From contig JAAYAB010000097.1 of assembly GCA_012719595.1 (NCBI GenBank), positions 1 to 40,778 on the forward strand: a DNA stretch of 40,778 nucleotides. Direction: 5' to 3'. The position numbers and the translations under genes were made by a program. The notes below the pieces were generated by a model. The model saw only the letters and a program-made list of their open reading frames with translations, made no database searches and had not been told where the DNA came from. Source of the DNA: Bacillota bacterium (lineage in GTDB: Bacteria > Bacillota > DTU014). The stretch's first letter is position 1, and each line of letters begins with the position of its first letter. This document shows, in pieces, positions 2,469 to 36,165 of the stretch.

Positions 2469-5400
2469 GTGGGGCTTGAGGACACCTTCGGCATTCGGTG
2501 GACGGACTCGCAGCGCGACGCACTCGATATCCATGTCAACACAGCCGTGACTGCAGGTGCAGGCTCAGGCAAGACGCAGGTGTTGGCTGCCAGGTACTTG
2601 CTGGCCGCGCAGCAGTTGATTGCCTCAACAGAGTACAAAGGGCCTGAGCACATACTGGTTCTCACGTTTACGGACAAGGCCGCCGCAGAGATGAGGGAGC
2701 GGATCGGCGCGGCCATTCAGAACTACGTGCGAGGATCAGACTTCAGCCGGCTGGATCCGCTGCTCAAGGATCGCTGGCTGAGGTTCTACACAGATCTGCC
2801 GGTGGGCGAGATATCCACCATCCATTCCTTCTGCGCCAGAATCCTGCGCCAGTACCCTGTCGAGGCCCGTGTGGACCCCGAATTCGCGATCATTGAGACC
2901 TATCAGCAGAAGCAACTGCTTGAGGACTCCATCAGAGCCGTCGTTTCCCGTCTTGCACGCGACATGGACGACAGCCTCGCACTCCTTCTCAAGACATGGA
3001 GTGCGCCGCGCCTGGCAGAAGTGCTGGCTATGCTTGCCGAGAACGGCCCACTGCTTTCAGACTGGTTCGACAGGTACGGCAATCGCACGATTGTCGAGTT
3101 GGAGCAGAACCAGCGCGAGACGATCATGAAGGCTGTGGTGCGAGGTCTGAAGGAGCTCAACACAGCGGACCACGCGCAGTTGATCGCTGAGATCGACGCG
3201 TGTCCGACCCTGAAGGATGCAGCCGGGGATAGACTCGAAGAGCAGAGACGCGTCGTGGCTGGCTGTTGGCGGAGGTGCATGCAATCCATCGGGACAGGCG
3301 ACGTAGACATCGATGCTCTCACCGGCCTTATCGATGCACTGTGCAGGCAGGACGGCTCGCCGCGCTCATTCAGGAATATGGGTTCGGCTTCCGTCTGGGG
3401 AAAGCAGGGCAAGGAGTTCGTTGGAGGCAGGCTCCAGCTTCTGGCCGAAGCAGTGTCCGCGCGCGTGTCCGATCTGAGTCTGAGGTTTGGTGAACACGAT
3501 CTAGCGTCTGTGCATGTGCTCAAGGCGCTTGCGATGGTCGGGCGGTCTGTGTTCGAACACTTCCGGCAGTCAAAGGACCGCTCAGGCGTGCTGGACTTCT
3601 CTGATCTGGAGACTCGTGCCCGCGAGCTCCTCACGGTGCCTTCCGTCAGAGCCTCACTAGCGTCGCGCTACCGATATGTCTTGGTCGACGAGTTTCAGGA
3701 CACGAACGGAATGCAGTGGGAGATCATCCGCAGCCTTTGCACAACCGAAGACGGTTCGTTCTCGCCGGACAAGCTGTTTCTTGTAGGCGATGAGAAGCAG
3801 GCCATTTACTCGTTTAGAGGCGGGGATGTGACCACCTTCGCGAGGGCGAGGCGTGAGTTGGCAGCTGGAACCACCGTGCCCGGAGCCGACGCGCACGGCA
3901 GTCCCGGAACCGTGGCAACGCACGTGCCTGGAGCCGCCGTATCCGCAGCCCGCGAGGCCAGCTCATACAGAAAGGTCGTGTTTGAAGACAACTTCCGCTC
4001 GTGTCAGCGGCTGGTCGACTCATTCAACTACCTCTTCTCACGCCTGCTGAGCTCTGGAGGGGTGCCCGATTACGAGGCTCAGTTCCAACACATGGTCAAA
4101 TCCAACGAGAAGATCACGCAGGACGGGTGGGCGGAGATTCACCTGCTGAGAACAAGCGACGGAATAGACCGTCTGGCGGCTGAAGCGGAGATGGTCGCGG
4201 AGCTCGCGAAGCGGATGGCTTCGGATGACGCAGTGAAAGCTCTCGCGGGCGGCGAAATGCCTCTTGTCGCCATTTTGTTGAGGCGAATGAGTGCGGTCAA
4301 AATCTATGAGAGTGCTCTTCGCAGGCATGGCCTTGCTTTCTCCACAGTCAAAGGACGAGGGTTCTACGCCCAGCAGGAAGTGCTCGATCTGTTCAACCTG
4401 CTAGCCTTCCTCTCTGACCCAAGGAGAGATATCGAGCTGTTCGGCGTGCTCCGCTCGCCTGTCTTCGGTTTGAGTGACGACGATGTCGTAGCCATATTGG
4501 GGCCGGGCACAGGAGCCGTCTGGGATCGACTGAGAAGCAGGCAGATGCCCAAGGCAGTCCGATGCACGCAGGTGCTTGAGAGCTGGCGGGAGATCCGAGA
4601 CCGGTGCTCGGTGGCGAGACTCATCCGCCATATACTCGTCGACTCTGGGCTTTTCGCTCCTCTTGCATATGGAAGGCGTGGTAAGCAGCGGCTGGCCAAT
4701 GTCGAGAAAGTGATCTCGCTGGCTCGGTCTTCAGACGCTCGCGGGAGCGGTCTCGCAGAGTTTGTGGAGTTCCTCGAACGCCAGATGGAGAGTGAAGAGC
4801 CTGAGGGAGAGGCGGAGTTGACGATAGAGTCGCCGGTGGTGCTCATGACCATCCACCAGGCAAAAGGGCTTCAGTTCCCTGCGGTGATCGTGCCCGACCT
4901 CTCGGCGCGGTTCAACATGGGATTCGAAGCCCCTGTGTACATAGGGGAAGTCGAAGGCCGCCGAGAACTCGGAATCAAGGCACCTGACCCTCTGAACCAG
5001 GGAGCGATGGAGAAGACCGCGTTGAGGACTCTGATCCAGAACACGATCAAGAGGCGCGATTTGGCTGAGCAGAAGCGGCTGCTCTATGTCGCAGCAACGA
5101 GAGCTCGGCTGCTGTTGGCACTGGTTGGGCAAGCGCCCTCAAGATCCGTTCAGGACAAGAGCTTCGAAGAACTCCTCTGCTGGAGTGAGTGGATCTGGAA
5201 AGCTTGTGACCTAGAATTCGTGGACGAGGGCACCCTGGCCTGGTCCGCACATCTTCAGCAGCCGACCGAGTCCGCAAGGGTAAGCATTGGTCCGATGACT
5301 GCGGTTCTCCACCGTCTCGGGTTTGCGCAGCCTCCCACCTCTTTGAGTGCGGCCGGCCGAGTTGCCGCGGCAGAGGCGTCCGCCGGCCTCGACGAGGTGA

Positions 5401-6452
5401 TCGATGGGGGAACCGGCGAAGCGGCTGATGCAGTGGCCGGCAGAGCGCTTGATGACATGACTGAGCGTGAGGACGTAGGCTTGAGGAGCGTTTCCAAGAG
5501 GCTGGACATCCTGGACAAGCTCGCCAAGGCCGAACTCGCACCTGTTACTGAGCAGAGGCGCGTCCTTTCGCGGCGAGTGATAGACCTGTCTGCGACCGCA
5601 GTCATGGACTACACGAGATGCCCGCGGCTGTACTACTTAAGGCACTATATCGGCGTTCCTGAGCAGCTGCTGGATCAGTGGGCGGACTCGGCCTGCTGCG
5701 AGGCATCGGCAGGCTGCGAGCCATCAGGCGGCTGCCGGGCTGAGGCCAATCCCCGCCGCGGGTACAGCGAAGACATTGCCTTGAGGGCGCGGAGCAGATA
5801 CGGCGAAGACATGACCATGGGTGCGAGGATCGGCGATTTGCTCCACCGGCTCATCGCTCACGAGGTATACGGTCCTGGGGACCCGCGGACCGAGATGCTG
5901 GTCAAGTCACTGCTGCCTCCGGCGGAATTGCCTCTGTTGGGCACTTACGTGGAGACTATCAACGCTCACCTGTCGTCCTTGCAGTCGCTCGGATACGCGG
6001 GCCGGCTCCGCAGCCTCCCTCGGAACGCCAGGCGCTGTGAGGTCGAGCTCGACTTGGTGGTCGGCAGCACCGATCAGTACGTTGTAAGGTTTACCGGATT
6101 CATCGATATGCTGGTGTCGACGCAGGCCGGGAAGTGGCGCATTCTAGACTTCAAGACAAACGCCGTGGGCGGCGCTGATATAGCCAGATTCACTGAGGAA
6201 CACCTTTACGATCTGCAGATGGAACTCTACCTGGCCGCCGCAGGACTCGCGCTGTCGAGGGCGGGCAGAGAAGACACAATCGAGAAGGCGGAGATCATCT
6301 ATACCTCTGCAGCTCTCCGTCACGAGGTCGACCCGGATCCTAACGCGATCGACAAGCTGTTGGAGGTCGCTCGCTCGATCTATGACGGGCGGTTCCCAAG
6401 GTGCGACGGCGCGTGCGACACGTGCGGGTATGAGGCTGTGTGCCGACCGTGA
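2469..6452 (+). CDS. addA: AddA-type UvrD/Rep helicase-nuclease subunit
   Basis: Walker A 'TAGAGSGKT', 'DEFQDT', 'VGDEKQAIYSFRGGD', C-terminal nuclease 'WRILDFKTN'. Likely start GTG 2469 with GGAGG about 9 nt upstream, just after the addB stop. Confidence 0.93.
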   Translation: MGLEDTFGIRWTDSQRDALDIHVNTAVTAGAGSGKTQVLAARYLLAAQQLIASTEYKGPEHILVLTFTDKAAAEMRERIGAAIQNYVRGSDFSRLDPLLKDRWLRFYTDLPVGEISTIHSFCARILRQYPVEARVDPEFAIIETYQQKQLLEDSIRAVVSRLARDMDDSLALLLKTWSAPRLAEVLAMLAENGPLLSDWFDRYGNRTIVELEQNQRETIMKAVVRGLKELNTADHAQLIAEIDACPTLKDAAGDRLEEQRRVVAGCWRRCMQSIGTGDVDIDALTGLIDALCRQDGSPRSFRNMGSASVWGKQGKEFVGGRLQLLAEAVSARVSDLSLRFGEHDLASVHVLKALAMVGRSVFEHFRQSKDRSGVLDFSDLETRARELLTVPSVRASLASRYRYVLVDEFQDTNGMQWEIIRSLCTTEDGSFSPDKLFLVGDEKQAIYSFRGGDVTTFARARRELAAGTTVPGADAHGSPGTVATHVPGAAVSAAREASSYRKVVFEDNFRSCQRLVDSFNYLFSRLLSSGGVPDYEAQFQHMVKSNEKITQDGWAEIHLLRTSDGIDRLAAEAEMVAELAKRMASDDAVKALAGGEMPLVAILLRRMSAVKIYESALRRHGLAFSTVKGRGFYAQQEVLDLFNLLAFLSDPRRDIELFGVLRSPVFGLSDDDVVAILGPGTGAVWDRLRSRQMPKAVRCTQVLESWREIRDRCSVARLIRHILVDSGLFAPLAYGRRGKQRLANVEKVISLARSSDARGSGLAEFVEFLERQMESEEPEGEAELTIESPVVLMTIHQAKGLQFPAVIVPDLSARFNMGFEAPVYIGEVEGRRELGIKAPDPLNQGAMEKTALRTLIQNTIKRRDLAEQKRLLYVAATRARLLLALVGQAPSRSVQDKSFEELLCWSEWIWKACDLEFVDEGTLAWSAHLQQPTESARVSIGPMTAVLHRLGFAQPPTSLSAAGRVAAAEASAGLDEVIDGGTGEAADAVAGRALDDMTEREDVGLRSVSKRLDILDKLAKAELAPVTEQRRVLSRRVIDLSATAVMDYTRCPRLYYLRHYIGVPEQLLDQWADSACCEASAGCEPSGGCRAEANPRRGYSEDIALRARSRYGEDMTMGARIGDLLHRLIAHEVYGPGDPRTEMLVKSLLPPAELPLLGTYVETINAHLSSLQSLGYAGRLRSLPRNARRCEVELDLVVGSTDQYVVRFTGFIDMLVSTQAGKWRILDFKTNAVGGADIARFTEEHLYDLQMELYLAAAGLALSRAGREDTIEKAEIIYTSAALRHEVDPDPNAIDKLLEVARSIYDGRFPRCDGACDTCGYEAVCRP

Positions 6453-6493
6453 GGCAAACCTTCGATACAACTGTGTGAGATGCAGTGATAATC

Positions 6494-6540: not shown

Positions 6541-9363
6541 ATGGGTATAGTTGCTGTTTACGTGCAAAGACATGATGATCCTGAGGCGAGAATGCTGGAG
6601 AAGCGGCTCCGCCTTCAGGGATACAAGACGCTTAGTGCAGTAAGGATAGAGCGCGTGTACAGGCTCGAGGGCGCCGTGACGATCCAGTCGCTTCTGCCTC
6701 TCCTCGTGAATCCCGTCAGCGAGTCCTACTCGGAGGAGAGCAGTCTAGTGCCAGAACAGGGGCCTGTAGTCGAGATCGGCTACCAGAAGGCCGTGACCGA
6801 CCCTGAGACGCCCTCGATCCTGGAGGGGGCGAGGGCCCTCGGCGTGTATGGGCTGGAGTGGGCCAGGCTCAGCATGCGCTATCAGTTTTCGGGGATCACT
6901 GGCGATGAGGCTCTTCGCATCGCGAAAGCCCACCTCTACAACCCGATTGTTCAGATGATTGTGACAGAATCGTCATATGGAAGCACGCTGAGGCCGTCGG
7001 GAGAGCCCGAGCCGGTCAGAAGGATCAGCCTTCGCGGGTTGAGTGACGCGGAGTTGGCTAAGGTCTCAGAGCGAAATTCCTGGTATGCGCCGCTTGAGCA
7101 GATGAAAGCCCTGCAGAGATATGAGGAGCAGCGCGGACGCGAACTGACCGATGCCGAGATCGAGATCATCGTGCAGAGCTGGAGCGATCACTGCTATCAC
7201 ACGACATGGAAGAGCCTCGGTCTGCTCAAGGTTCTGATGAACGCAACGGAGTCGATTGATCACCCGATGGTGGTGTCAGTCTTCAAGGACAACGCGGGGG
7301 CGATCGAGTTCTTCGACGGCTACGCGGTCACATTGAAGGGCGAGACACACAATTTCCCGAGCTCCATCGCGACATTCGGAGGCGTAACGACGAAGCACGG
7401 AGGCGTCATACGCGACACCATAGGGTTTGGCAAGGGAGCGTATCCGATCGGAGGGAGCACGATAATGGGCACCATGGACCCTCGGACTCCCGACGAGGAG
7501 GTGCCTGCCGGAGCGCTCAATCCAGGTCACATAGTGCGTGAGTCGATTCGCGGCACTGCCTACTACTGCAATCCCATGGGAATCCCGATGATGTACTCCG
7601 TCTACCGGGCGCACCCGGGCTACCCGAAGTGCTTGGCTCTGGGTCACTCGATCGGGATCATCCCGAAGGAGCACGCACTCAAGGAACGCCCCGTGCCAGG
7701 TGACAAGCTGGTTCTCATAGGGGGGCCGACAGGCCGGGACGGCATACACGGCGCAACTGCCAGTTCGGTCGAGATGACGGGAGAGACTGCCGAGAAGGAA
7801 TCGGCAGCCGTCCAGATCGGCCACCCGATAACAGAGCGCAAGTTCATGGAAGCCATCCCGCTGCTGAGGGATTCCGGCTGCATAAGGGCAATCACCGACC
7901 TCGGCGCCGGAGGGATCTCGTGCGCAGCAGGTGAGATGGGTGAAGCGACTGGAGTCGAAGTCAATCTTGACGCAGTCCCCCTCAAGGACCAGAGTCTAAG
8001 CGCATGGGAGATTCTCCTCTCTGAGTCCCAGGAACGCATGGCCATGGCGATCCCGGCGGACCGTGTCGCCGACGCCCTGCGCATTCTCGAGCGCTTCAGC
8101 GTGGACGCAACCATCATTGGAACGTTCACAGGCGATCGAAGGTTCCGCGCTTCCTGGCGGGGAGAGACTGTCGCGGATATCGACATGAGCTTCCTCTGGG
8201 GCGCCTGTCCGATCCCACAGGCGCAAGTAAAGACACCCGAGCCTGCAAAGACGTGCTGCTGCAAGGGCGATGTTGCGAAGCTAGACCTGGCAGGACTGTC
8301 CGATGCAGCGAAACGGGTCTTGAGCCACTACCACTGCTGCGACCAATCGCAGGCAGGATTCCAGTTCGATTCCACGGTGCAGGGAAGGACCGTGATAGGA
8401 CCGTATGGCGGCAAGACCGGGAAGATGCCGACCAATGTGTTCGTAGCTGCACCCCTGAGGGGCAAGCCCTACGGCGTGGTAAGCACGATCGCATACAACC
8501 CGTTCTACGGAGACGTCGACTCTGCAGGCCTGGTCAAGCTAATGGTCGTGGAGGCGATTGCCCGAGCTGTGGCTGCCGGCGCAGATCCGCAGTCTATAGC
8601 TCTCAACGACAACTTCTACACGCCCAAGTACACGCCCGAGGTAGGGTGGCATCTGAAGCGAATGGTCGAGACGGCTGCGAGCATATCGAAGGAGTTCGGA
8701 ACGCCTTTCATTTCCGGGAAAGACTCGAGTTCGGGCACTTTCCTGACGACAGACGGCAAGAGCATAGACGTCCCGCTGACCTTTGCTGTGGCGACTATTG
8801 GCAAGATGGCCGACGTGTCCCGGGTTAGGACCAAGGACTTCAAGTCGATAGGGAGCTCGATCGTCCTAGTCGGCGGCATCGACCCGACCAGACTCGGAGG
8901 CTCGGTCTACCTCGACTGCTTCGGCAAGCGGGGATCGGAGCTGTACGCCTCTGATGATCCGAGCTATACCCAGCGAGTCAAGAAACTGTGGTACAGGCTG
9001 CACGACTTGTACGGCAGGAGCGGCTGCTGCGTGAAGGCTGCGTCGGCTGTCGGAGAGGGCGGGGTCTTCGTCCGGCTGTTCGAGATGGCGTACGGCGGCG
9101 GACTGGGCGTTGACCTGTCGCTGGATTCGTCGGCCGGTCCGCTTGAGGGGCTGCTCTTCTCAGAATGCATCGGCTCAGTGCTGGTCGAAGTCGGCAGCGA
9201 GTCGGATCTTGAGGAGCTGTTTGGCGATCTGCCGTACGTGGTCCTCGGGAGGACGATCAGCGAGCCGGTGATCAGAGTCTCGTACTGTGGGGATTCTGTG
9301 GAACTGCCCATGGACGACTTAGTGAACGCGTGGGAAAGCACATTTGGAGAGGTGGTGCTGTGA
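6541..9363 (+). CDS. purL: Phosphoribosylformylglycinamidine synthase with N-terminal PurS-like region fused to PurL
   Basis: 940 aa; PurL signatures 'GETHNFPSSIATFGGVTTKHGGVIRD', 'SWSDHCYHTTWK', 'ITDLGAGGISCAAGEMGE', 'FISGKDSSSGTF'; about 150 aa N-terminal PurS-like segment. Confidence 0.92.
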   Translation: MGIVAVYVQRHDDPEARMLEKRLRLQGYKTLSAVRIERVYRLEGAVTIQSLLPLLVNPVSESYSEESSLVPEQGPVVEIGYQKAVTDPETPSILEGARALGVYGLEWARLSMRYQFSGITGDEALRIAKAHLYNPIVQMIVTESSYGSTLRPSGEPEPVRRISLRGLSDAELAKVSERNSWYAPLEQMKALQRYEEQRGRELTDAEIEIIVQSWSDHCYHTTWKSLGLLKVLMNATESIDHPMVVSVFKDNAGAIEFFDGYAVTLKGETHNFPSSIATFGGVTTKHGGVIRDTIGFGKGAYPIGGSTIMGTMDPRTPDEEVPAGALNPGHIVRESIRGTAYYCNPMGIPMMYSVYRAHPGYPKCLALGHSIGIIPKEHALKERPVPGDKLVLIGGPTGRDGIHGATASSVEMTGETAEKESAAVQIGHPITERKFMEAIPLLRDSGCIRAITDLGAGGISCAAGEMGEATGVEVNLDAVPLKDQSLSAWEILLSESQERMAMAIPADRVADALRILERFSVDATIIGTFTGDRRFRASWRGETVADIDMSFLWGACPIPQAQVKTPEPAKTCCCKGDVAKLDLAGLSDAAKRVLSHYHCCDQSQAGFQFDSTVQGRTVIGPYGGKTGKMPTNVFVAAPLRGKPYGVVSTIAYNPFYGDVDSAGLVKLMVVEAIARAVAAGADPQSIALNDNFYTPKYTPEVGWHLKRMVETAASISKEFGTPFISGKDSSSGTFLTTDGKSIDVPLTFAVATIGKMADVSRVRTKDFKSIGSSIVLVGGIDPTRLGGSVYLDCFGKRGSELYASDDPSYTQRVKKLWYRLHDLYGRSGCCVKAASAVGEGGVFVRLFEMAYGGGLGVDLSLDSSAGPLEGLLFSECIGSVLVEVGSESDLEELFGDLPYVVLGRTISEPVIRVSYCGDSVELPMDDLVNAWESTFGEVVL

Positions 9364-30556: not shown

Positions 30557-31816
30557 CTAGAAGCTATGCTTAAGCATGACGGTGACGTGAGTCGAGTGAC
30601 CGGAGAACTCGCCCGTATCACCCAGGAAGAAGATCGCACCGAGCTTGAGGCTTGTTGCACGCGCGAGACTGAGCGTGTACAGAGGCATCACCACGGCACT
30701 GCCGTCCTGCAGATTCGCAATGCTGATGCACTCCAAGCTGTTGTCTATGTCGATGCTGTACGCGAGGCGGTTCATGAGGTAGTGTTCTGGATCGATCTTC
30801 TGGCCTGGATTCTGGCTGTAGGGAACGAGCAGCGAGCCGCTCCCGTTGTACACGTATTGGACCTCGGCATAGAGGCCGCTGTCGAAGGTGTGATCTGCTC
30901 CGACAACTGCTTGTATGTACGGATCGTCAGGTGAAAGCCCCAGTCTGACCTCCAACGGATTGCTAGGTGTGAGCGGCAGTTTCGCAGGCATTACGTATGC
31001 CGCCTCAGCCCACACTCCCGTGTCCTTGATAGCACCGGCAACAGCCACGCCGACCTTGTCGACGGAGCGGTAAAGGCCTTCGTACGCGAGGGTGCTCGGA
31101 TCCGGCAACAGGGTGAGCGGGTCGATGTTCATCCGGGCTATCAGCGCAGGCATGTCTTCCCACCCATGGAAGTAGCTCACGTGAAGGTCATAGCCAGAAA
31201 CACCCATGCCCAGCTTGACTGCCCACTCCATATTCTCCAGCTTAGCCTGGGGTAGTGTCGGGGTCAGGCTGCTGAGGATGGCAGTCAGTGGGCCGGCCGC
31301 GCCCGCAAACGGGACTAGATCTGACAGCTCCAGAGGAACGAAGATGGGAACTACCACTCCTGTCAGGTCGAAGCTGTCGGCATAGTAGGTGGCCTGAGCA
31401 GCCAGCACTGGCTTCCCTGTGAGTTCCGTACTCGCCAGCGAGAATCCCGACGGATTGATGTAGTTGGTGGGGTTGATTCCGTCGGCTGTGCCCCAGCTGA
31501 TCACCTGCCTGCCGACTACGATATCCGTGTCCTCCAGGTAGAGCGAGACATAAGCCTCGTCCATTGAGATCGCAGTCTTGCGCGCAAGGGCGTCATGGCC
31601 CGCGGCAAACGAGAGACGCAGCTTGCCGAAGTCGTGTTTTCTCTCGAGGCAGAGTTTGAGTTCAGTGTCAATCCCCGCAAACGCCTGCGTATCAACCTCA
31701 TAGCTTAGCGATTGGGTCAGCTCTCCGCCAGTGCTGAACTCCGCTCCCAGAACGGACGCTGAACAGCATGCCAGCAGGATCGCTGCGATCGCACAGATTA
31801 GGTGTTTCCTAGTCAT
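30557..31816 (-). CDS. Putative outer-membrane beta-barrel protein (DUF1302-like)
   Basis: Signal peptide 'MTRKHLICAIAAILLACCSASVLGAE'; 'DTDIVVGRQVISWGTADGINPTNYINPSGF' resembles DUF1302-type barrels; alternating beta pattern; ends 'HVTVMLKHSF' with a C-terminal Phe typical of OMPs. Confidence 0.7.
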   Translation of the reverse strand: MTRKHLICAIAAILLACCSASVLGAEFSTGGELTQSLSYEVDTQAFAGIDTELKLCLERKHDFGKLRLSFAAGHDALARKTAISMDEAYVSLYLEDTDIVVGRQVISWGTADGINPTNYINPSGFSLASTELTGKPVLAAQATYYADSFDLTGVVVPIFVPLELSDLVPFAGAAGPLTAILSSLTPTLPQAKLENMEWAVKLGMGVSGYDLHVSYFHGWEDMPALIARMNIDPLTLLPDPSTLAYEGLYRSVDKVGVAVAGAIKDTGVWAEAAYVMPAKLPLTPSNPLEVRLGLSPDDPYIQAVVGADHTFDSGLYAEVQYVYNGSGSLLVPYSQNPGQKIDPEHYLMNRLAYSIDIDNSLECISIANLQDGSAVVMPLYTLSLARATSLKLGAIFFLGDTGEFSGHSTHVTVMLKHSF

Positions 31817-31847
31817 GGCCTTGATCCACCCGCCCTTCGGTTGGTAT

Positions 31848-32693
31848 TCACTTGGCTCGGAGGTACCTTAGCGTGAAGAAATCGTCGTCGACTTGATTCC
31901 TGATCTCCAATATTTCAATGATCGACTTCGTTCCGGCCAGCTCGTTCGACATGACGATCCTGTGCGGGATGCATTCCCCATCTTCGTTCCGGCGCAGATC
32001 GGTGATGAGCAGTTGTTTGCTCAACTGCCCGCTGGTATCGTAGAATTGAATCTTCAGCGGAATCATCTCATCGCGCCACACCCACATCTTTAGCCTGGAG
32101 TAGTCGCCCTCGGTCCTCGGAGTCAGATCCAGCACGTAGCAGGCGTATTCTTCATGGGCTTCGTCATCCAGTCGCACTGCGTCGTACTCATCGCTGTAAG
32201 CCCAGCCTCCGCCGATCTCCTCGTACGTGAAGTCGGTGCCCATGAAGTTGCCCTTGGTCATGTGTCCGGCAATCCTTCGCTCCCTCCCGAGAGCAGGCAG
32301 GTAGAGCCACATCTCCGGCTCGCCGCCTCCCCGCTCGCTGATCGAGAGGAATTTGGTCCCCCGGACATCCGCAGGATCCATGTACTCCACCAGCTGCTTT
32401 TCGGCAACGCCGTCGTCGCTTCTGAACACCATCAGCTTGCTGGCCCGCTGGTCGCCCTTCTTGTTCTCGGTGATCAGGTTGACAACAGCCGAGCCTGAGC
32501 CTATCAGGGCTGTCTGGCCCTTGAGTTGGGCCAGGATGTCATCCCCTGAAGGAAGGTCCTGGGCGAATGTGGTACCCGACGCCATCAACAACAGCGCCAG
32601 GGTCAGCGACAGCCGCGTCAGAGTCATCAACAGCGGCCTCAATATCGGCGCCGGAAGCCCGGGAGTCAGCAGCACTGTCTTGGTCGTCTTCAC
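31848..32693 (-). CDS. LolA-like outer-membrane lipoprotein-sorting-type protein
   Basis: Signal segment 'LSLTLALLLMASGTTFAQD'; 'MWLYLPALGRERRIAGHMTKGNFMGTDFTYEEIGG' typical of LolA-like proteins that accompany MMPL transporters; GTG start overlaps the stop of the upstream MMPL gene. Confidence 0.82.
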   Translation of the reverse strand: MKTTKTVLLTPGLPAPILRPLLMTLTRLSLTLALLLMASGTTFAQDLPSGDDILAQLKGQTALIGSGSAVVNLITENKKGDQRASKLMVFRSDDGVAEKQLVEYMDPADVRGTKFLSISERGGGEPEMWLYLPALGRERRIAGHMTKGNFMGTDFTYEEIGGGWAYSDEYDAVRLDDEAHEEYACYVLDLTPRTEGDYSRLKMWVWRDEMIPLKIQFYDTSGQLSKQLLITDLRRNEDGECIPHRIVMSNELAGTKSIIEILEIRNQVDDDFFTLRYLRAK

Positions 32694-35014
32694 TTCGAAA
32701 GCCCTCCCTTTTCCGATAGTCTGTATGTTCGTCCCATCAACGCAGTAGGCCTGAGAAGTCTGAGAATCGCCGGCACGATCGTCAGCGACGAAAGGGAGCT
32801 GGTAAGCATGGTCAAGGCTATGAGATAGCCGAACACATCGACGGCCCGGAAGTGCGAGAAGGCCAGAATGGCGAAGCCGACGATCAGGGTGAGAGCATTG
32901 AAGAAGATCCCTCTGCCTGCCGTGGAGCTGGTGGTTGCGATCGCCTCAGATGGATCTTTCCCCGCTTCGATCTCGAGCCGGTACCGGCTGATGTAGTGAA
33001 TGGAGTAGTCGATGCCTATCCCAACCGCTATGCTGGCTATCATTGTGGTGACGGCGTCGAGGGGGACGCCGCTATAGCCCATGACCCCGAAATTGACGGC
33101 GACTGTAAGTATCAAGGGCAAGATGCTGATGACGCCTGCCAGGAACGATCCCATCAGAATCGAGACTATGATGCCGCACGTTACGATCGAAATGGCCAGG
33201 CTGTAAATCTGGCTGTCCCGGAATCTGTCTGCTAGGACGAGCATGACGTTTGGTATTCCCACCACCTTGACCTGAAGATCTCCGTCCGACGGGTAGTTCG
33301 CTCGAACGTAGTCATCGAGACGGCGTATCGTCCTGCGCAGTTGCTCGGAACTCATGCTTTCGATCCGCGCGGATACGATGGCTTTATCGAAGTTGTAGCT
33401 CACCAGCGAGTCGACGCTCGATCCGCCCTGCAGAGTGAACAGGAGCAATTCCTGCGCAACCGCCTGTCTCGTCTCGGGTATTGTGTAGTACTCGTTTTCG
33501 CCCATGTTGAGGGCTCGATTCAGTTCTCGCACGACATCTGCAATGGATGTGGCCCGGCTCACTCCCGGCACGGAGTTGAGGAAGTCCTGAGTCTCTAGCA
33601 TCCTGTTTAGCACTGCCGGCTCCTTGACTCCGTCAGGCTCTCCCGTATCAAAAACGAGCGATACCTGCATGCTCCCACCGAACTGGTCCTCAACAATGTT
33701 GGTCCCCCGTATGATCGGGCTGCCTTTCTCGAAGTAGTTCATCATGTTGCTCTCGAGAGAAAGGTTCAGCGCTCCGACTACGCACACAACCACGATGATG
33801 ATCGAAGCAATTGTCACTCCTCTCGCGTGAGCCGCGACGAAACCGCCGAGGGCTGACAGGGCGTCGACAATCCGCTTCGTGGGGCGCGCTTCTCTCCTTG
33901 TGAATTGAGAAGGCGCGGGCCGAAGCACAAGCACTGCCGGGATGAAGAGCATCGAAAAGATCATAGCGGCCAGGACTCCGAACGCCGTGAACACGCCGAA
34001 TTGGCGGATAGGTGTCACAAATGAGGAGACCAGAGAAGCGAATCCCGCCACCGTCGTGAGCGAAGTCATGGCCACCGGCGCGTTCATTTGCCCCATAGTC
34101 TCTTCCAGAGCAGCCCCCTTCTCGTTGCCCGCAGCCAGCGCTTCGGTGTATTTGTTCAGGATGTGCATTCCGTACGCGCTTCCGATCGCTAGCAGTATCA
34201 CGGGTGTCACCATAGTGACGATCGTCAGGGGGATGCGCAGCATGGACATGAGGCCTACGGCCCAAATGACGCTCGTCACGACTGTCAGCAGTGGAAGCGC
34301 CACGCCCACAGTGGTTCGGAAGCTCCAATAGAGGATGGCGAGCAGAACGGCAATGACTAAAGGAATGAGAAAGGACATGTCTTCCTTGATCGTCTGTTCG
34401 GCATAGTAGCTGATGTAGGCGTTGCCGACAATGAGTATCTCCTCGGGTCCGCGGTACTTCTGCGCGAGTCCTTCGACATCGCGGGCGATCTGGCTCGATC
34501 TGGCGTTTGCAAGCTCGCCGGCGTTCTCCATCGTGACCATGATCGCGGCCGCCCGCCCGTCCTCTGAGATCAGCTTGCCCAGGTACTGGCTGTCGGTTAT
34601 GGACCTGCGAAACTCGTCGATTTCATCATCTGTCTGAGGTAATCCGGGCGCTGCAGGCACGATCTCGATCCCCAGCTCGCTGCTTCGGATCAAGTCCACG
34701 GTTATCGGATCCAGGACGGCTTCGACACCCTGGATTTCGCGGATCTCTTCGGCCAGGCTATAGATCTTCGCGAGAGTGTTCGCAGTGAAGACATCTTCCC
34801 CGCGAAGAACGACCAAGAAAACATCCTGGTAGCCGAACTCGGCGGTCGCATCCCTGATGTCCTTGATAGCCGGGTCGTCTGCCGGAACCATCCTCTCTAG
34901 ATCCGCGTCGAACTCCATCTTCGGCAAGAACAGGGCAAACACGACTGTGATGGCTAGCAACGCGGCTATCACGAGCTTGGGATGGCTGAAAGCAAGCCTG
35001 CTCAGAGTTGACAG
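32690..35014 (-). CDS. RND superfamily (MMPL/HpnN-like) transporter
   Basis: Two repeats each with a large extracytoplasmic domain and TM bundle; 'TIVTMVTPVILLAIGSAYGMHILNKY', 'TTMIASIAVGIGIDYSIHYISRYRLE'. The ORF extends to 35056, but GGAGGTGATCC followed by CTG at 35014 suggests a later start. Confidence 0.88.
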   Translation of the reverse strand: MSTLSRLAFSHPKLVIAALLAITVVFALFLPKMEFDADLERMVPADDPAIKDIRDATAEFGYQDVFLVVLRGEDVFTANTLAKIYSLAEEIREIQGVEAVLDPITVDLIRSSELGIEIVPAAPGLPQTDDEIDEFRRSITDSQYLGKLISEDGRAAAIMVTMENAGELANARSSQIARDVEGLAQKYRGPEEILIVGNAYISYYAEQTIKEDMSFLIPLVIAVLLAILYWSFRTTVGVALPLLTVVTSVIWAVGLMSMLRIPLTIVTMVTPVILLAIGSAYGMHILNKYTEALAAGNEKGAALEETMGQMNAPVAMTSLTTVAGFASLVSSFVTPIRQFGVFTAFGVLAAMIFSMLFIPAVLVLRPAPSQFTRREARPTKRIVDALSALGGFVAAHARGVTIASIIIVVVCVVGALNLSLESNMMNYFEKGSPIIRGTNIVEDQFGGSMQVSLVFDTGEPDGVKEPAVLNRMLETQDFLNSVPGVSRATSIADVVRELNRALNMGENEYYTIPETRQAVAQELLLFTLQGGSSVDSLVSYNFDKAIVSARIESMSSEQLRRTIRRLDDYVRANYPSDGDLQVKVVGIPNVMLVLADRFRDSQIYSLAISIVTCGIIVSILMGSFLAGVISILPLILTVAVNFGVMGYSGVPLDAVTTMIASIAVGIGIDYSIHYISRYRLEIEAGKDPSEAIATTSSTAGRGIFFNALTLIVGFAILAFSHFRAVDVFGYLIALTMLTSSLSSLTIVPAILRLLRPTALMGRTYRLSEKGGLSK

Positions 35015-35082
35015 GTGGATCACCTCCGGCACTGGGTAGGGGAGTGCCATAACCACATAGATGCACGTTGTACAAGCATATG

Positions 35083-35107
35083 AAACAATCGTTTAATACG
35101 ATAGTTT
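35083..35107. promoter_or_regulatory. Imperfect palindrome AAACAATCGT-TTAAT-ACGATAGTTT, candidate TetR-family operator
   Basis: 10-bp arms with 9/10 complementarity and a 5-nt spacer, just upstream of the MMPL gene and downstream of the TetR gene. Confidence 0.6.
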
Positions 35108-35317
35108 TAGTACAATATACCACCGCGGTGTGCCGGTGTCAATCAAGATCAGTTGTGGAGGAGGCGATGTGTACGGTTGTGTGGCGGCCAGAGACGTGAA
35201 GGACTGATTGGCGATTAGAGATGTGCGGGCAGACTCGTCGCCCGTGGGGGGGCAACTAGTAGAACGGGAGGAGGAAGACACCTGGTGATCGCTAGGTAGG
35301 CAGCGAGTGATAGGTTG

Positions 35318-35905
35318 TCAATCCAGTATGTTGTTTACCAGCAGTTCGACATAGTCCGATCTCTCACGCGGGTCCTTGAGATTCATGCCGAAGGTTCTGC
35401 CAATGCCGTGGTGGAACAGGATAGGGGTGACCACGCCCGCAATCAACTGCATGACCATGTGTGAGCACTTTGGATCATCTTCGGGCATGCCGGTCAGGCT
35501 TCGGATGATCGGTGCGAGCAGCATCTCTGAGTTGTCGATCAGCTCGATCACGCCTTCGCTCTGGCGGCCGTCGCTGATCAGCTTCGTGACCATCAAGAAC
35601 AGCACTCCGGGGTACTCCATCAGCTGGTGCATCAGCCGCTCAGCCCATCTCACGATTCTGGTCTTGGGGCTGGACTCCGCTTGGCTGAGCTCACCATACG
35701 TCTTGCGGAGCTCTCTCATGAAATGCCTTTCGACCTCGTCTATCAGATTGTCCTTGGAGCGGAAGTAGTAGTTGACCGAGGCAAGGTTGACACCAGCCTG
35801 CTCTGCGAACTCCCTGATCGTGAAGTTCAGGTTTACCTGCCTGCCGATCATGTCGATGGCCGTCGCTATCATCTTGCTCTGAGTATCGCTCTTTTCCGTT
35901 TCCAT
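35318..35905 (-). CDS. TetR-family transcriptional regulator
   Basis: N-terminal HTH 'MIATAIDMIGRQVNLNFTIREFAEQAGVNLASVNYYFRSKDNLIDEV'; 195 aa. Confidence 0.9.
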   Translation of the reverse strand: METEKSDTQSKMIATAIDMIGRQVNLNFTIREFAEQAGVNLASVNYYFRSKDNLIDEVERHFMRELRKTYGELSQAESSPKTRIVRWAERLMHQLMEYPGVLFLMVTKLISDGRQSEGVIELIDNSEMLLAPIIRSLTGMPEDDPKCSHMVMQLIAGVVTPILFHHGIGRTFGMNLKDPRERSDYVELLVNNILD

Positions 35906-36076: not shown

Positions 36077-36165
36077 TGGTGCCGAAGGCGGGAGTCGAAC
36101 CCGCACGGGGTTTGAGCCCCACCGGATTTTGAGTCCGGCGCGTCTGCCAATTCCACCACTTCGGC
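36077..36165 (-). tRNA. tRNA-Leu (anticodon CAA), CCA encoded
   Basis: Reverse complement GCCGAAGTGGTGGAATTGGCAGACGCGCCGGACTCAAAATCCGGTGGGGCTCAAACCCCGTGCGGGTTCGACTCCCGCCTTCGGCACCA: 7-bp acceptor, long variable arm, anticodon loop CTCAAAA, TTCGACT T-loop. Confidence 0.97.

Follow-up and report, generated by a model that had tools for sequence, protein, structure and literature searches.

A candidate TetR-controlled export line of pump, carrier and outer-membrane barrel in a diderm Bacillota

The crossing of the periplasm by lipids and oily molecules is a long-standing question, and the kind of system reported here is already known in outline. The AmeABCD cassette of Castellaniella defragrans combines an HAE3 RND pump, a LolA-superfamily periplasmic protein and a DUF1302 outer-membrane protein, and its deletion lowers tolerance to apolar monoterpenes (PMC6394551). 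In Thalassolituus oleivorans, TOL_3187 joins MMPL and LolA-like parts in one protein beside the porin TOL_3188, and both are induced on C28 alkane (PMC6304351). The PG1175-PG1181 genes of Porphyromonas gingivalis and Prevotella relatives, which encode TetR, MMPL, LolA_like and a hypothetical protein in a single operon, are induced by iron depletion (PMC10434189). Sets of DUF1302, PF07044 and COG1033 are co-regulated with aromatic pathways (PMC6449761), and high expression of a DUF1329/MMPL cluster is reported from a culture that degrades benzene (PMC13101534). A LolB-less Lol system was proposed in 2016 for the Halanaerobiales, where LolB was not found (PMC5007114).

We analysed a window of 40,778 nucleotides (contig JAAYAB010000097.1 of the Bacillota assembly GCA_012719595.1) that contains a related operon. 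Comparison with AmeABCD showed that the window operon has three genes, a PF17131 carrier and the pump first, whereas AmeABCD starts with the barrel, encodes a 451-aa DUF1329 carrier and adds a YCF48-type periplasmic protein as fourth component; no YCF48/COG4447 gene was found in the operon, nor between the genes in close relatives. TOL_3187/TOL_3188 resembles some Bacillota relatives of the operon, in which pump and carrier share a frame, but it belongs to a Gammaproteobacterium and is known solely from proteomics on C28 alkane, while PG1175-PG1181 differs by its additional ABC ATPases and its iron-depletion response. The Lol pathway has the LolA fold in common with the operon, and LolCDE-like genes in common with an ABC version of it, but the window carrier belongs to PF17131 and not PF03548, a barrel and not LolB follows it, and the engine is an RND pump. 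MmpL4, MmpL5, MmpL3, HpnN and NPC1 are of the same RND fold class as the pump but differ in partners and cargo, and the pump misses the HpnN cut-off. The exact trio was not described in the literature searched beyond AmeABCD, TOL_3187/3188, PG1175-PG1181 and the Lol proposals. Relative to that literature, it is new that diderm Bacillota have the set and its control, that carrier and barrel are strictly paired across phyla, that pump and carrier are joined in frame in Bacillota and that an ABC engine and other exits occur, and so is the re-reading of the Halanaerobiales Lol system.

The operon, its products and its control region

Table 1. Coordinates of the operon, its surroundings and two variant loci (window positions unless a locus is named)
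Feature	Position	Strand	Evidence or remark
TetR-family regulator gene, 195 aa	35318-35905	-	PF00440 TetR_N, E 9e-7
Sigma-70 promoter of the pump-carrier-barrel genes, TTGACA-17-TATATT, extended -10	35114-35142	-	11/12 match
Probable TetR operator over the start site, AAACTATCGTATTAAACGATTGTTT	35083-35107	-	Imperfect palindrome, 9/10 arm positions; sequence reading
MMPL/RND inner-membrane pump, HAE3-like	32690-35056	-	PF03176, E 1.3e-54; 788 aa from GTG 35056
LolA_like periplasmic carrier, 281 aa, signal peptide	31848-32693	-	PF17131, E 2.8e-49
DUF1302-like outer-membrane beta-barrel (predicted), 419 aa, signal peptide	30557-31816	-	AlphaFold2, Foldseek, PF06980 family link
tRNA-Leu(caa), between the operon and the SLH-protein gene	36077-36165
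SLH-protein gene, 484 aa	36283-37737	-	Three SLH stretches
Barrel-sized protein in the DUF1302 slot, Halanaerobiales	L168 5526-6920		Omp85 domain, E 6e-12
Barrel-sized protein in the DUF1302 slot, Halanaerobiales	L169 8253-9701		Between LolA_like and MMPL

The ORF check of the window found the four genes where the sequence-only reading had placed them, all on the minus strand. Its observations on the junctions held: the TGA of the pump gene (32692-32690) and the GTG of the carrier gene (32693-32691) share four nucleotides (GTGA), and the spacing between carrier and barrel genes, given as about 31 bp, is exactly 31 nt (31817-31847). The start of the pump gene is probably a non-canonical CTG at 35014 (774 aa) rather than the GTG of Table 1, because a strong SD-like GGAGGTGATC lies upstream of it and the orthologue of the sister genome G001 has a TTG start at the corresponding place.

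The results of our NCBIfam search showed that the family nearest to the pump is TIGR00921 (HAE3), with 330.6 bits for a cut-off of 351.9. HpnN, to which the pump had been likened, was rejected, as TIGR03480 scored 124.8 bits, far short of its cut-off of 751.85; squalene-hopene cyclase (PF13243) was not found in the genome, which makes hopanoids an unlikely cargo. A Foldseek search with the model of a homologue, a joined MMPL-LolA protein, placed MmpL4/5/3, HpnN and NPC1-like structures first and AcrD at rank 48. An HAE1 tripartite pump (AcrB-type pump, membrane fusion protein and TolC) was rejected since the operon has no MFP or TolC gene, and it is also disfavoured by the fold of the homologue, which is closer to MmpL and NPC1. 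The carrier scored 167.7 bits against PF17131 and 24.3 bits, barely above the cut-off of 23.1, against DUF1329 (PF07044), and its solved relatives are 9tp6, 3bk5, 4z48 and 3buu. The classical LolA family, PF03548, was detected neither in the genome nor in the Omp85-positive relatives tested.

The barrel ORF has the features read from its sequence, namely a hydrophobic helix at the N-terminus, VGRQVISWGTADGINPTNYINPSGF and a C-terminal Phe. A closed barrel of 14-18 strands had been expected; AlphaFold2, run on a 58-sequence alignment, predicted a barrel with high confidence (pLDDT 94.2, pTM 0.88) and a signal helix, but with about 20 strands. Foldseek comparison of this model with the PDB gave AlgE as the closest structure (E 4e-12, TM about 0.56), together with porins and OmpM1, while a profile of the barrel sequences had no match among solved structures. 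The window barrel alone matched DUF1302 below the Pfam threshold (E 0.017), and PF06980 (DUF1302) was matched by 49 of the 58 family members, the best at 2.9e-30. In the alignment of this family, G102, G256, W108-G109 and the terminal F show little or no variation. On the strength of the predicted fold, the Foldseek matches and the family matches, the 419-aa protein is, as modelled, a DUF1302-like outer-membrane barrel.

The candidate operator lies downstream of the promoter and reads AAACTATCGT-ATTAA-ACGATTGTTT from 35107 to 35083; it is a single site in the window, with 0 expected. In G001, which carries a TetR-pump-carrier-barrel operon whose barrel has 55% identity, the promoter is identical and at the equivalent position, and the palindrome core AAACGAnnGTTTnATATGCTTGTA is kept. 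The palindrome is absent from the list of the automatic repeat scan and rests on sequence reading and on conservation in G001, and its strict half-site pattern had no match in any fetched locus. A TetR gene is present near 39 of the 57 informative homologous loci, and we infer that the regulator would bind the palindrome.

The neighbouring SLH protein, which ends in GSNTGSSAGA, was considered as an OmpM-type outer-membrane tether. It has no barrel family match and hence is not OmpM-like, and this candidate was rejected.

The diderm host and the distribution of the set

Judged by its gene content, the host cell is diderm. The genome carries Omp85/BamA and LpxC, a single contig bears BamA, LpxD, LptF/G, LptC and LptA, and an LptD-like protein was detected (NCBIfam 4.8e-5; Pfam 0.0022). 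The genome also has an Omp85 of the TpsB type. TamB gave only sub-threshold matches in the genome search. MlaD was not detected above threshold in the genome, nor in most diderm relatives. The GC content of the window contig is 0.587, compared with 0.597 and 0.585 for two BamA contigs, and its tetranucleotide correlation with these two (0.92-0.94) exceeds that with all other genomes compared. Contamination was rejected on this agreement in composition and on the presence of both operon and BamA in G001; by composition, the window goes with the BamA contigs. In a set of 61 Bacillota, the 8 genomes with the barrel and the 9 with a strong LolA_like gene all fell within the 14 that are Omp85-positive (Fisher p 1.0e-6 and 1.2e-7, respectively), which is a consistency test and not an independent phylogenetic one.

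Two loci bear on Omp85 proteins. At L105, short ORFs on either side of BamA (5035-6465 and 8495-9052) have faint matches to AsmA (0.022) and TamB (0.031) and may represent a TamB that is shortened or strongly diverged. At L107 (G000:C295), a TpsB/ShlB-type Omp85 lies behind a long open frame, its potential secreted partner, so that two-partner secretion is possible in this Bacillota genome.

A scan with the LolA_like profile gave 587 confirmed hits, the best 80 of which were retained as loci; since the profile was seeded from barrel-linked loci, barrel-free LolA_like genes may be under-sampled. These best 80 of 587 cover Bacteroidota, Bacillota, Spirochaetota, Fidelibacterota, Ignavibacteriota, Cloacimonadota, Fibrobacterota, Deinococcota, Pseudomonadota and many other phyla. 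The conduit had been ascribed to a Bacillota-like genome; the three-gene set does occur in diderm Bacillota, but the ascription is too narrow, as the set occurs across many diderm phyla. One locus labelled Actinomycetota (L082) has a LolA that groups with those of Ignavibacteriota/Calditrichota and is probably a misbinned contig.

Co-occurrence of the three genes in relatives, proposed from the window, proved very strong. Among the best 80 of 587, the barrel was present in 66 of the 66 MMPL-linked LolA loci with DNA left downstream, counted with a barrel profile restricted to the window locus and those of the first eight relatives and excluding five further MMPL-linked loci that stop at a contig edge. 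The gene set is beyond chance, given this recurrence in other genomes. In an enlarged set, a DUF1302-like barrel was found in 86 of 88 informative MMPL loci, many of which are included in the barrel profile used, and in the remaining two (L168 and L169) a barrel-sized protein sits between carrier and pump (Table 1). Tree distances over 73 loci, shared species history included, were correlated at 0.87 for LolA and barrel, 0.68 for MMPL and barrel and 0.62 for LolA and MMPL; 0 of 2000 permutations were as high, and none exceeded 0.19.

The pump frame is open into LolA in four Bacillota relatives (L022, L024, L027 and L040), which form two pairs in two lineages, with the unfused L029 beside one pair. 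As each of them retains an internal SD and ATG for LolA, both joined and free carrier may be made. The model of one such joined protein (pLDDT 89.8) has a well-formed pump domain and a flexible join.

No cargo gene was found within the operon, and none was obviously recurrent among neighbours inspected by eye. In a Frackibacter cluster (L015, 8670-13452), two DUF1302-like barrels flank a TetR gene and a gene of the FadL family (PF03349, 7.7e-34).

The ABC version and the Halanaerobiales

In G017, G021, G026 and the Halanaerobiales, a LolD-like ATPase and two FtsX-like permeases precede the carrier and the barrel, often with TetR. On a 117-sequence LolA_like tree, the engine label switches a single time, a number that none of 500 shuffles matched or undercut (branch support 89 in a quick search), and the LolCDE-like engine was found only with LolA sequences across one branch from the MMPL-linked ones. 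From this single change, carrier and engine appear to be matched. LolA_like was present in 13 of the 13 genomes of the order of the Halanaerobiales genome G040, with 2-5 hits per Halanaerobiales genome, and the barrel was next in 6 of the 8 ABC-type loci examined in that order. Since the tested diderm relatives yielded no PF03548 match, the LolA of the system proposed for this order in 2016 probably belongs to the PF17131 family. Nearly all Halanaerobiales tested also have a second protein type, with a partial LolA_like domain and open frames roughly 740-825 aa long (L172 5510-7834 and L173 5203-7647), followed in L172 by TPR repeats.

We put forward, as a tentative generalisation that may well not hold, that a LolA_like carrier with a dedicated barrel is a widespread, perhaps ancient diderm conveyor whose engine (MMPL or LolCDE-like ABC) and exit (DUF1302-like, Omp85-domain or FadL) can be exchanged, and that the supposed LolB-less lipoprotein system of Halanaerobiales is the same conveyor.

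Proposed function and its alternatives

The conduit from inner membrane through periplasm to outer membrane that had been suggested for the operon is supported by the predicted barrel, by the presence of BamA, LpxC and Lpt genes and by the strength of the co-occurrence. We consider it reasonably probable that, under TetR control, it exports a lipid or a small hydrophobic molecule across the envelope, a direction and a cargo that we infer. The FadL-family channel of the L015 cluster and the monoterpene and C28 alkane findings on AmeABCD and TOL_3187/3188 also speak for it. From the anatomy of the site, TetR without ligand would block the promoter by sitting on the palindrome at +1, and the cargo would induce through TetR. 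The proton-driven MMPL pump would draw the cargo from the inner membrane, in keeping with the fold class of its homologue; as a member of the MmpL/HpnN/NPC1 class and not of the TolC-docking AcrB type, it should not by itself reach across the periplasm. The LolA_like carrier, a half-barrel by homology, would accept the cargo, a handover suggested by the in-frame joins and the co-segregation of carrier with engine, and ferry it across the periplasm to the dedicated DUF1302-like barrel, from which it would be released into or through the outer membrane. Carrier and barrel would be the constant core, with either an MMPL pump or a LolCDE-like ABC transporter as engine.

A general supply or balance of phospholipid or some other envelope lipid in the outer membrane of a cell without Mla would agree with MlaD being undetected in the window genome and most diderm relatives, with the sub-threshold TamB and with the lipid transporters among the pump's RND class. 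We judge it unlikely, because dedicated TetR control and the multiple LolA_like paralogues of Halanaerobiales better suit a specialised cargo and because G008, G013, G030, G033 and G037 are Omp85-positive diderm Bacillota without a strong LolA_like gene. That the barrel admits environmental hydrophobes such as alkanes and terpenes and the carrier ferries them inward is quite improbable: the characterised MmpL, HpnN and AmeD pumps move their cargo outward (PMC6394551) and FadL was not found in the window genome, against which stand the induction of TOL_3187/3188 on C28 alkane, set by its authors in the context of alkane uptake (PMC6304351), the FadL-family gene of the L015 cluster and the strong expression of the DUF1329/MMPL cluster in the benzene-degrading culture (PMC13101534).

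A variant of lipoprotein sorting with the barrel in place of LolB draws on the LolA fold, on the LolD-like and two FtsX-like genes of the ABC version and on the LolB not found in Halanaerobiales (PMC5007114). However, PF03548 was undetected, the engine of the operon is an RND pump and not LolCDE, and the closest engines by fold transport lipids, siderophores or sterols, which leaves this variant very improbable. We give hardly any credence to MMPL and LolA_like being assembly factors that export and insert the barrel, as proposed for TOL_3187/3188 (PMC6304351): strict co-inheritance would follow from it, but the genome has BamA, the general barrel insertase, and the slot of the barrel is filled at L168 by one with an Omp85 domain, with FadL in the L015 cluster.

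The export line remains our preferred reading. The question of lipid crossing is sharpest for the diderm Bacillota, most of which lack MlaD and for which, to our knowledge, no LolB is known. The proposed Lol system of Halanaerobiales may call for the re-reading suggested here, and the compact, widely conserved set of pump, carrier and barrel frames two questions, namely which cargo the carrier binds and whether the barrel takes that cargo from the carrier.
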